NCBI GenBank assembly: GCA_002724185.1
Contig: PBOB01000061.1
Location: 1 to 64,000 of the forward strand
Length of the DNA: 64,000 nucleotides
Origin: Acidiferrobacteraceae bacterium
GTDB taxonomy: Bacteria > Pseudomonadota > Gammaproteobacteria > Arenicellales > UBA868
Direction of reading: 5' to 3'
Shown piece by piece: positions 13,202-17,353 of the stretch; position 1 is the first letter of the stretch; every line of letters starts with the position of its first letter. The notes under the pieces were generated by a model. It saw only the letters and a list, made by a program, of their open reading frames with translations, had not been told where the DNA came from and did not search any database. Both the position numbers and the translations under genes were made by a program.

Positions 13202-13254
13202 ACAGCGCCGATTTGACTGCTTGCGGGCGCTAAAGAAATACGGCTAAAACGTGG
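13202..13254 (+). promoter_or_regulatory. SAM-II riboswitch (metA-type) upstream of metZ
   Basis: The leader holds a P1 stem AGCGCC (13204-13209) with GGCGCT (13226-13231) enclosing a 16-nt loop that begins GATTTGAC and ends TTGCG. After P1 comes the tail ending GGCTAAAACG (13242-13251). These are the conserved SAM-II elements (GAUUU loop start, UUGC before the 3' side of P1, GCUAAA tail) in the right order and spacing. The class binds S-adenosylmethionine as an H-type pseudoknot and turns methionine genes down. It is followed directly by a terminator and then metZ, a methionine biosynthesis gene, so context supports the call. Confidence 0.85.
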
Positions 13255-13289
13255 AAAACCCGCGCCAGCGTAAGCAGCAGCGGGTTTTT
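13255..13289 (+). terminator. Intrinsic terminator in the metZ leader
   Basis: Stem AAAACCCGC / GCGGGTTTT (13255-13263 with 13280-13288) followed by T's. It lies between the SAM-II aptamer and the metZ start, so it is likely the expression platform: transcription would stop here when SAM is bound. Its A-rich left arm is next to the pseudoknot tail. Confidence 0.75.
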
Positions 13290-13325
13290 GCATTATCAGA
13301 ACTTTTAAGGCTAGGTAAAATTAGA

Positions 13326-14519
13326 GTGAGACAATCAGATAATTTCGTAAGCAACGAGACTCTCGCTATTAGAGCCGGACAAGTTCGAACTATGGAAGGA
13401 GAGCATAGCGACCCAATATTTGCGACTTCCAGCTATATTTTTGAAAATGCAGCACAAGCAGCCGCAAGGTTTTCTGGTACAGAATCAGGTAACGTATATT
13501 CACGATTTACGAATCCTACAGTGAGGGCGTTTGAGCAGCGCCTGGCAGCTTTAGAGGGCGGCTTATATGCAGTTGCTACAGCGTCAGGTATGTCGGCTAT
13601 AACTTTGTTGCTCCTATCGTTAGTGAAAGAGGGAGACCATGTAGTTTGCTCTAATGAAGTTTTTGGATCGACTATCTCTGTATTTGCAAAGGTATTGCCG
13701 CGATTTGGTATTGAGGTAGAGTTTGCTCCTGTTTCTGATGTCCGAGCATGGCAAAGCGTGGTTCGTGCCAATACGAGACTCTTATTTATTGAGACACCTA
13801 CTAATCCATTATGCAATATCAGCGACATTAAGGCGCTATCTGAAATAGCTCATGATATCGGAGGTCTCTTGGTGGTAGACAATGCGTTTTGTACTCCGGC
13901 CTTACAGAAACCCCTTGCATTAGGGGCGGATATCATAGTGCACTCGGCGACAAAATATCTAGATGGTCAAGGGAGATGCGTTGGAGGAGCTGTCGTCACT
14001 AGCAATGAAGAGATATATCAGAAAATTTTTAAGATGTTGCGAATCACAGGTCCCGCAATGAGCCCCTTCAATGCCTGGGTTTTTCATAAGGGGCTAGAAA
14101 CGTTACCGATTAGAATGCAGTTACACTCAGACAATGCTGAGAAGCTAGCAAAATGGTTGCTTACGCAGCCCGACGTTGACCGCGTCTATTATCCGGGTCT
14201 TACTGACCACCCTGGTCACGTACTGGCAAAGACTCAGCAGGAAGGGTTTGGTGGTATTTTGTCTTTTGAGGTTAAGGGTGGAAGAACTGAGGCGTGGCAG
14301 GTCATCGACCGTACAAGTCTAATTTCGATTACAGCAAATCTCGGAGATGTGAAAACCACAATCACACATCCTGCCTCTACTACTCACGCCCACATTACGA
14401 CCGAGCAACGTGCAGCGGCTGGAATCAAGGAAAACCTCATACGTATAGCTGCAGGTCTAGAGGCTGTAGCTGATATCATAGACGATTTGTCACGCGCTTT
14501 CCTCAGGCCTGAACAATAG
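13326..14519 (+). CDS. metZ: O-succinylhomoserine sulfhydrylase
   Basis: PLP-dependent Cys/Met-metabolism enzyme that makes homocysteine from O-succinylhomoserine and sulfide. It has TLAIRAGQ-like N-terminal residues, NVYSRFTNPTV, the PLP lysine in HSATKYLDGQG, and the C-terminal segment that ends IRIAAGLE. An open frame extends to 13251, but that part is the riboswitch terminator. The GTG at 13326 (VRQSDNFVSNE) gives the normal ~397 residues and is the better start. It is a single gene controlled by the SAM-II leader. Confidence 0.93.
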   Translation: MRQSDNFVSNETLAIRAGQVRTMEGEHSDPIFATSSYIFENAAQAAARFSGTESGNVYSRFTNPTVRAFEQRLAALEGGLYAVATASGMSAITLLLLSLVKEGDHVVCSNEVFGSTISVFAKVLPRFGIEVEFAPVSDVRAWQSVVRANTRLLFIETPTNPLCNISDIKALSEIAHDIGGLLVVDNAFCTPALQKPLALGADIIVHSATKYLDGQGRCVGGAVVTSNEEIYQKIFKMLRITGPAMSPFNAWVFHKGLETLPIRMQLHSDNAEKLAKWLLTQPDVDRVYYPGLTDHPGHVLAKTQQEGFGGILSFEVKGGRTEAWQVIDRTSLISITANLGDVKTTITHPASTTHAHITTEQRAAAGIKENLIRIAAGLEAVADIIDDLSRAFLRPEQ

Positions 14520-15288: not shown

Positions 15289-16119
15289 ATGAAGCCAATT
15301 GATCTGATTAATCTTGATTTATACCCCCTTGACCGACTAGAGACACCAGCCGGCCATAAACTGGTAACGAGCATCAGAGATAGTTTGGAACTGGATGGAA
15401 GTTGCACACTTCCAGATTTTGTAACTGCCAATGCCCTCCAGGCTATGAGATCTCAGGCTATCTCCCTTGCTGATAAGGCTTATTCGGGACCTACATCTGC
15501 ATCGCCCTATTTTTTCAATTACGATCTCGAAAAAGAGTTAGATATAGATGTGGATCGAAAGCATCCACTGCGACGAAAGGGGAAGAGAAATCTTCGTCAA
15601 ATTGCAGCCGATCTTATTCCAGGAGATCATCTACTTTCTGTTTTGTATTGCTCAGATTTGATGACACAATTTCTTAGCAGGGTACTCGACAAAGAGGTTT
15701 TTCGTAATCAAGATAAATATCAGTCACTGAACATAAGCTTGCAGAATGAGGGCGGCTGCCAGCAGTGGCACTTTGATACTGGTGATATGGTGACAACACT
15801 GCTACTTCAGTCATCTGAGTCAGGTGGAATATTCGAATATTATCCAAGAATACGATCAGAAGACGATGAAAACTTTGAAGAGGTCAGAAAGGTTTTAGAC
15901 GGTATATCGAACCGAGTGAAACAGTTACATCTTCGACCTGGCATGCTAAGTCTTTTTCAGGGTCGTAATTCAATTCACCGAGTTACTGAGATCCGTGGTT
16001 CCACATGTCGCATACAAGCAATTCTTGGTTATGCTACTAGTCCAAATGTAGTTGGAAGCACAAAGTCGAGCATTCTTCATTATGGCCCACGAGTTGCCTT
16101 GAGGGAAAACACGCGTTAA
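15289..16119 (+). CDS. BesD/HalD-related Fe(II)/2-oxoglutarate oxygenase (hydroxylase-type metal site)
   Basis: 276-residue jelly-roll oxygenase similar to the BesD group of free-amino-acid halogenases and hydroxylases. The metal motif is H161-F-D163, with the distal H230 in GRNSIHRVT, and Arg near 241 is placed to bind 2-oxoglutarate. The halogenases have Gly in place of the Asp. Here Asp is present, so hydroxylation rather than chlorination is expected. The GGIFEYYPRIRSEDDENF segment is typical of the group. The substrate is unknown; free amino acids are used by characterised members. An orphan SAM-II riboswitch downstream points at its 3' end. Confidence 0.75.
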   Translation: MKPIDLINLDLYPLDRLETPAGHKLVTSIRDSLELDGSCTLPDFVTANALQAMRSQAISLADKAYSGPTSASPYFFNYDLEKELDIDVDRKHPLRRKGKRNLRQIAADLIPGDHLLSVLYCSDLMTQFLSRVLDKEVFRNQDKYQSLNISLQNEGGCQQWHFDTGDMVTTLLLQSSESGGIFEYYPRIRSEDDENFEEVRKVLDGISNRVKQLHLRPGMLSLFQGRNSIHRVTEIRGSTCRIQAILGYATSPNVVGSTKSSILHYGPRVALRENTR

Positions 16120-16125
16120 CGTCTG

Positions 16126-16218
16126 CTAATCGTATTTTACGATGACTTCTGACCGCGCACAGATGGAGGCGTGTCGTTGTATACATCTCCTTACTCCTAT
16201 TAGATTGACTGGACCCAT
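16126..16218 (-). CDS. Possible 30-codon ORF behind the orphan SAM-II leader
   Basis: Minus-strand ATG (16218) with a good ribosome site AAGGAG six bases upstream, encoding MGPVNLIGVRRCIQRHASIC and ten more residues. It is the first ORF downstream of the orphan SAM-II terminator (about 190 nt away) and ends just before the 3' end of the convergent oxygenase gene. No homologue is known to me. It may be a chance ORF; the Shine-Dalgarno site and location are the only support. Confidence 0.3.
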   Translation of the reverse strand: MGPVNLIGVRRCIQRHASICARSEVIVKYD

Positions 16219-16403
16219 AAATTGCTCCTTAATTGTTTTAATTGTGCTGAGAAGTAGAGCCTTATCTGTTCTATGTAGGTTTTCATGACAGTGCATACAT
16301 CTCCGAGTTTAAAGCAAAGATCATTGTGATTTCTATCTCAAAAATGAAGTTTTTATCCGCTCTAGAGTAGGTTTCAAGATTAATAATCAGCACTTTGTTA
16401 GAC

Positions 16404-16438
16404 AAAAAAAACCCACTCCTACTTGCGTAGGTGCGGGT
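16404..16438 (-). terminator. Intrinsic terminator of the orphan SAM-II leader
   Basis: On the minus strand ACCCGCACCTAC, a GCAA loop, GTAGGAGTGGGT (one mismatch, one G-U pair) and eight T's. It is a textbook rho-independent terminator directly after the aptamer. Confidence 0.85.
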
Positions 16439-16445
16439 CGAATTA

Positions 16446-16495
16446 CGTTTTAGCTGTACTTGGTAGAGCGCTCGCAATCAGTCAAATCAGCGCAC
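16446..16495 (-). promoter_or_regulatory. Orphan SAM-II riboswitch
   Basis: Minus strand: P1 GCGCT (16493-16489) pairs with AGCGC (16472-16468) around a 16-nt loop starting GATTTGAC and ending TTGCG. The tail ends with AGCTAAAACG (16455-16446). Loop and tail are nearly identical to the metZ riboswitch at 13202-13254, while the stems differ by covarying bases, so it is an independent functional copy rather than a recent duplicate. No methionine gene lies downstream. The next features are a 30-codon ORF and the antisense side of the oxygenase gene. Confidence 0.85.
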
Positions 16496-16499
16496 GCCA

Positions 16500-16528
16500 A
16501 TAATATCTAGGTTCTTGTCACATGTCAT
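16500..16528 (-). promoter_or_regulatory. Promoter of the orphan SAM-II leader
   Basis: Minus-strand -35 ATGACA (16528-16523), 17-bp spacer, -10 TATTAT (16505-16500). Each box is one base from consensus. The predicted start at about 16493 coincides with the aptamer P1 stem. Confidence 0.7.
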
Positions 16529-16813
16529 CAGTTATTTATGGTGATTAGGTGGTAGTGCATGCGCGTACACGTACACACACATTCTACTATGTAGTGTGTC
16601 ATATTTAGCCAGCCACTAGATGCTGTATGCCAGATAATATAAAGAAATTATTTTGAACGAGTCGGGCTTAATCAGGAGTATTTAAAATGTTCCATTAGTC
16701 TCCTGACCTTAAAGCAACTATGTGGTTTGCATAGTTGAGACACGTCTAAGCAATACTGTGTTAATTTCACTTTTGTTGAAGTAGCAGAACGCAATCTAGC
16801 AATTAATAATACC

Positions 16814-17353
16814 GTGAAAAAAGAACAGAAACTTGTAGTAACAATAGAGCGCTTAAGTATAGATAACTGGTACGTGTTCGAAGACTCAATTTATTCAATA
16901 GAAGAAGATAGCTATGAGGCGGAGCGACAGCATTCTAAGGAAATGATTAATAAAACAGTACGTAATACCGCTGGTGTTTCGGTAGTGGCGTTGATCGATA
17001 ACATAGCTGCCGGATTTTGTATTGGTGGTCCAATTTCAGATTTTACTCATCTCATTGGGCCATCTGCAGAAGTAGCAGATAGTTATAATGAGATCTTGTA
17101 TGCTGCAGATTTATGTGTTGCAGAGAAGCATAGAGGGCTAGGGGTTGCACGACAGCTTAAGGCCGCGCAAATTCGTTATGCAAAGCAGGAAGGCTATAGA
17201 TTATTAGCCGGTCGAAATAGACTCGGATTTGCAGATATTATGTGGCGCCTAAATCGATCATTAGGCGCTAGACCTGTCAGTGTGATTAACGATGCTTATA
17301 ACGACGATTTAAAACCCAATAGTACGATCTATTATCACATCAAGCTTCGTTAG
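16814..17353 (+). CDS. GNAT-family N-acetyltransferase
   Basis: 179 residues with one GNAT domain. The acetyl-CoA loop is R107-G-L-G110-V-A in CVAEKHRGLGVARQL, after the beta-4 strand YAADLCV. The substrate cannot be told. It starts with GTG or follows a weak site, and the upstream 690 bp has no other plus-strand gene. Likely a single-gene unit. No terminator is seen directly downstream. Confidence 0.82.
   Translation: MKKEQKLVVTIERLSIDNWYVFEDSIYSIEEDSYEAERQHSKEMINKTVRNTAGVSVVALIDNIAAGFCIGGPISDFTHLIGPSAEVADSYNEILYAADLCVAEKHRGLGVARQLKAAQIRYAKQEGYRLLAGRNRLGFADIMWRLNRSLGARPVSVINDAYNDDLKPNSTIYYHIKLR

Follow-up and report, generated by a model that had tools for sequence, protein, structure and literature searches.

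A SAM-II aptamer with a terminator but no downstream gene in an Acidiferrobacteraceae genome

The stretch of DNA analysed here (the window) comprises positions 1 to 64,000 of contig PBOB01000061.1 from an Acidiferrobacteraceae bacterium (assembly GCA_002724185.1). On its minus strand, from 16528 to 16404, promoter-like hexamers, an aptamer of the S-adenosylmethionine (SAM) riboswitch class SAM-II and an intrinsic terminator follow one another in the 5' to 3' direction, and we refer to this element as the orphan. Beyond it the next feature is the 3' end of a convergent oxygenase gene, whose stop lies at 16119, and no methionine or SAM gene follows. Aptamer, terminator and the lack of a downstream gene can be read directly from the nucleotides, and on these points our analysis agrees with a preliminary description of this DNA, which had proposed a SAM-II riboswitch with promoter and terminator that leads into no methionine gene; the absence of such a gene is upheld by reading of the open reading frames (ORFs) and by tblastn and blastn.

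The aptamer (16446-16493, minus strand) is arranged as GCGCU-GAUUUGACUGAUUGC-G-AGCGC-...-GCUAAAACG, read from 16493 to 16446. In the P1 stem (16468-16493) GCGCU (16493-16489) pairs with AGCGC (16472-16468), the inner pair being U-A where C-G is usual, and in the P2 pseudoknot core (16450-16477) UUGC (16477-16474) pairs with the GCUAA of GCUAAA (16454-16449). The P2 core pairs are kept in 32 of 32 relatives, and the orphan is identical at them; the structural and sequence features of SAM-II tested in the aptamer are present, namely P1 around the conserved loop, the P2 core and the conserved core bases. A promoter directly before P1 and, often, a terminator are typical of SAM-II (PMC1273637). 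Here the sigma-70-like sequence ATGACA-N17-TATTAT (16500-16528, minus strand; ATGACA at 16528-16523 and TATTAT at 16505-16500; 10 of 12 matches) stands just ahead of P1, as in the SAM-II leaders of relatives, and its predicted transcription start, at about 16493-16495, falls on the first base of P1. Because shuffles of the region give promoter-like matches equally often (3.0 expected, 2 found), the promoter call rests on this position, and its activity, with a start at P1, is predicted. The terminator (16404-16439, minus strand) has a 12-pair stem (16439-16410) of -18 to -19 kcal/mol and eight T's (16411-16404).

Two covariance models support the class assignment, one made from the SAM-II of this lineage and a second built from other genomes only, without any window sequence. 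Scanned against the whole genome, the second model gave 63.7 bits to the aptamer of metZ in the same window, 47.3 bits to the orphan (E 1.2e-9) and only 16.5 bits to the next match; the lineage model scores the orphan at 55.3 bits and finds SAM-II in 32 of the family's 33 genomes and in 78 of the 109 in the order. With Rfam at its gathering thresholds, in contrast, only transfer RNAs were reported and no SAM-II passed, the orphan reaching 23.4 bits with RF01726 against a threshold of 44. Scores under the thresholds are what would speak for a chance resemblance, and the preliminary description had named a score far below threshold as grounds for refutation. The score is indeed that low, but the metZ aptamer (13205-13251, plus strand), which belongs to an ordinary leader followed by a terminator and by the metZ ORF (13251-14519, plus strand, or with a start slightly downstream), also falls short (25.4 bits with RF00521, threshold 36; 22.5 bits with RF01726, threshold 44), and the RF01726 cut-off is exceeded in none of 61 related genomes. 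The low score is therefore a property of the lineage and a limit of the model, passing the cut-off being no defining trait of the RNA class. Against the 47.3 bits of the independent model, with chance matches in this genome reaching only 16.5, chance resemblance deserves next to no credence, and the observation of a SAM-II at 16446-16493 is confirmed.

The pattern of conservation suggests that the aptamer was maintained. In an alignment of 100 SAM-II matches, with a core consensus drawn from 81 distinct relatives, the orphan agrees at 31 of 33 core columns. It departs from the consensus at the compensated P1 partner (C-G to U-A) and at column 58, right after GCUAAA, where it has an A in common with the metZ and rhodanese leaders. 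Orphan and metZ copy agree at 32 of 33 core columns but at just 7 of the 15 remaining ones (Fisher p 1.3e-4), and the sole core mismatch belongs to the compensated P1 pair; the earlier statement that P1 differs from that of the metZ copy and yet pairs is borne out. The similarity between the two stops at the aptamer. Since the 60 bases upstream agree only at chance level (15 of 60 identical), the orphan is not a recent duplicate of the metZ leader. Selection on the aptamer probably persisted through the greater part of their divergence, and the orphan aptamer can probably still fold and bind SAM.

Whether such an aptamer could still switch depends on the terminator. In the leaders of the family the GCUAAA strand, part of the pseudoknot when SAM is bound, has an alternative partner in the terminator's 5' arm, with which it forms a classical antiterminator. 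By thermodynamic folding, which leaves out the pseudoknot, this hairpin is predicted at -8.6 to -19.5 kcal/mol in the 39 leaders of the family in which a terminator was detected, versus -1.0 in the orphan. A measure of arm sequestration over the whole leader gives the orphan a value towards the weak end of the range (-2.5) and lends weak support to the loss of a ligand-controlled platform, although it separates the classes poorly and the local hairpin is the more informative. With the antiterminator missing, the orphan's terminator should be constitutive, acting whatever the SAM level. In its aptamer the orphan belongs to SAM-II, but it shows neither of the cis-regulator features tested, having no methionine or SAM gene downstream and no predicted ligand-controlled expression platform.

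For comparison we surveyed about 100 SAM-II leaders in 109 genomes of the order, among which the genus is represented by one other genome. We read the gene behind nearly every match, those cut off by a contig end not being judged; metZ and bmt were named by blastp to reference proteins and other genes by reading of the sequence. The genes found behind SAM-II are metZ, bmt, those for aspartokinase, metK and a rhodanese-domain protein, and a few unusual others. Every leader not cut by a contig end is followed by an ORF on the same strand, with two exceptions. One is the orphan; the other is a decayed copy in another genome of the family (L135:4219-4264, minus strand; G010:C1), a tandem leader with no evident gene that scores 31.5 bits with the independent model and forms a second orphan in the family. 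The comparison of related genomes advised by the preliminary description accordingly turned up no intact gene-less counterpart among the 109 genomes, so that no sign of gene-less copies kept in relatives, as a conserved small RNA would show, was found in the order. That SAM-II leaders do decay is illustrated by the bmt leader of this same genome (L264:1344-1391, plus strand; G000:C86), which lies upstream of bmt and looks like a decayed SAM-II, at 8.9 bits with the lineage model, whereas its counterpart in the second genome of the genus is intact at 79.1 bits. A perfect CTAAAACG/CGTTTTAG hairpin is left in the decayed copy. In Pelagibacter, a SAM-II/SAM-V element precedes bhmt (PMC2704228).

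Tandem leaders occur elsewhere. In one form, found in the family, a rhodanese-domain gene is preceded by a short-loop SAM-II with its terminator and then by another aptamer, which is SAM-II/SAM-V-like (L128:6651-6798, minus strand; L130:976-1125, plus; L131:2974-3123, minus; L132:4305-4454, minus), and the same tandem stands ahead of a different, ATPase-like ORF at L129. Another pair of SAM-II-type aptamers in tandem (L218:2009-2166, plus strand) precedes an ADP-ribosylglycohydrolase-like ORF, an unexpected target. At the same locus RF02424 (Burkholderia small RNA Bp2_287) matches, below cut-off, the reverse complement of the SAM-II leader and terminator (L218:1982-2102, minus strand), which raises the possibility that RF02424 was defined on the opposite strand of a SAM-II leader.

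The surroundings of the orphan appear to have been rearranged. In relatives the order is SAM-II and metZ on the plus strand, usually a lyase gene on the minus strand, and a GNAT acetyltransferase gene on the minus strand. Here the GNAT gene (16814-17353, plus strand), whose orthologues in relatives adjoin metZ and run the opposite way, lies flipped at 2.3 kb from metZ, and a gene for an HIT protein, a 76-amino-acid ORF, the oxygenase gene and the orphan lie between. The oxygenase gene (15289-16119, plus strand) encodes an Fe(II)/2-oxoglutarate oxygenase-like protein of the HalD family (PF23169). Its closest relatives (57-62%) belong mainly to other gammaproteobacterial metagenome-assembled genomes while those within the family reach only 30-37%, which suggests that the gene was acquired. 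Retention of an H-x-D motif (WHFD) points to a hydroxylase more than to a halogenase. Elsewhere in the family, several genomes (L183, L185, L188, L193) have cleanly lost metZ along with its SAM-II and still carry the HAD, lyase and GNAT genes in order.

As to the origin of the orphan, its best blastn match among the loci compared, metZ copy excluded, is the rhodanese leader of genome G003 (74% over 94 nt, E 1.6e-9), with an alignment score slightly above that with the metZ copy. The rhodanese leaders of G003 and G048 are its best matches among other genomes, over aptamer and terminator together. No rhodanese orthologue was found in this genome, the assembly of which is 93% complete. Perhaps, then, the gene once served by the orphan was a rhodanese gene, with its leader of the short-loop class. 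Displacement of the bmt leader by an inversion can be ruled out, given that the genome keeps bmt with its own decayed leader and that bmt leaders are of the long-loop class.

We consider, with moderate confidence, that the best explanation of the orphan is a SAM-II leader left stranded by the loss of its gene. It would have been a short-loop leader, the class used in the family for metZ, as here, and for the rhodanese gene, and its gene might have been lost during a local rearrangement of the metZ-GNAT neighbourhood together with the arrival of the oxygenase gene. The promoter would still initiate at P1 and the aptamer would still fold and probably bind SAM, with the strong terminator, unopposed by an antiterminator, ending the RNA at about 90 nt at any SAM level. 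Because the RNA would end there, the orphan would control nothing adjacent to it, and it appears to lack a present function. Several points weigh against this explanation. Aptamer, promoter and terminator are all intact, though a relic should decay as the bmt leader and the L135 copy have; neither tblastn nor blastn over 16120-16814 detected any remains of the rhodanese gene or of another gene from the neighbourhood; which gene was lost can only be guessed; and the case against switching leans on folding without the pseudoknot and on a whole-leader measure of poor discrimination. The ancestral metZ-GNAT order does not by itself place a SAM-II at this site.

Alternatively, the orphan might be a small RNA gene in its own right, giving a SAM-binding transcript of about 90 nt that is always terminated and whose stability or exposed bases change with SAM. 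This RNA would act in trans or on the oxygenase mRNA, at the 3' untranslated region where the two overlap. Such a role, which the preliminary description had also raised as a SAM-sensing RNA ending at the terminator, is possible but tentative. It would fit the retention of every core aptamer base while other positions diverged, the presence of a promoter and a strong terminator, and the missing antiterminator, as expected of an RNA meant always to terminate. In Sinorhizobium meliloti, terminated SAM-II leaders do build up as stable transcripts about 70-110 nt long, for which a trans role has been speculated (PMC9373788). No plus-strand terminator was found between the oxygenase and GNAT genes, so the oxygenase mRNA may overlap the orphan RNA. 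No target is known, however, and a stranded leader is likelier because the other genomes of the order hold no intact gene-less counterpart. We regard as rather doubtful the further proposal that the aptamer has given up its cis role and now serves as a SAM-binding small RNA gene with constitutive termination, which might act in trans or on the 3' untranslated region of the convergent oxygenase mRNA.

The remaining possibilities would need a terminator under control. If low SAM allowed readthrough into the oxygenase 3' end, the antisense transcript might lower oxygenase expression, as the preliminary description had suggested; we find this improbable, since the antiterminator that readthrough requires is missing by folding, at -1.0 as opposed to -8.6 kcal/mol or stronger in the family, and the oxygenase has no known link to SAM metabolism. 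Two antisense-acting riboswitches are on record (PMC9943018; PMC8079631). Less probable still is that the orphan serves a minus-strand gene, located from 16404 to 16120, that is small or has escaped recognition. Minus-strand ORFs are present there, with ATG starts (28 and 56 amino acids) and a TTG start (64 amino acids), and in a related family (f10; L227, L238, L239, L245) a SAM-II/SAM-V-like element without a terminator immediately precedes small proteins of unknown function (MQVSTIHN..., 77-82 amino acids; 175 in L227). The ORFs at the orphan are nevertheless chance-sized and show no similarity to proteins of neighbourhood loci, and their control would again require a controlled terminator; the 30-codon ORF put forward earlier as the possible target of tiny-peptide control is one of several of this kind and gains no support.

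SAM-II is known from Alpha-, Beta- and Gammaproteobacteria. The Rfam models miss most SAM-II leaders of this gammaproteobacterial order, whether before metZ, bmt, the aspartokinase gene, metK or the rhodanese gene. The orphan offers a clean case in which an intact aptamer stands apart from gene and switching platform, and it tests whether stranded riboswitches just decay or turn into small RNAs. Compared with the SAM-II class itself (RF00521/RF01726, the metA motif), the orphan shares P1, the pseudoknot core, the loop GAUUUGA, UUGC, GCUAAA, the promoter before P1 and the terminator after it, and differs in having no downstream gene and no antiterminator; its standing below the Rfam SAM-II cut-offs is shared by all SAM-II copies tested in the lineage. 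RZ and RA1/RA2 of S. meliloti, the terminated metZ and metA leaders, are likewise short RNAs, about 70-110 nt long, in which a terminator follows a SAM-II aptamer, but they still run into metZ and metA while the orphan runs into nothing. The antisense-acting riboswitches (the SAM riboswitch at the ubiG operon of C. acetobutylicum and the B12 riboswitch of AspocR in Listeria) resemble it in lying at the 3' end of a convergent gene and pointing into it, but require ligand-controlled readthrough, for which the orphan has no predicted antiterminator. SreA of Listeria, finally, is of another SAM riboswitch class and retains its cis operon, while the orphan has no known target; like the orphan it is a terminated SAM riboswitch, and one that could act in trans.
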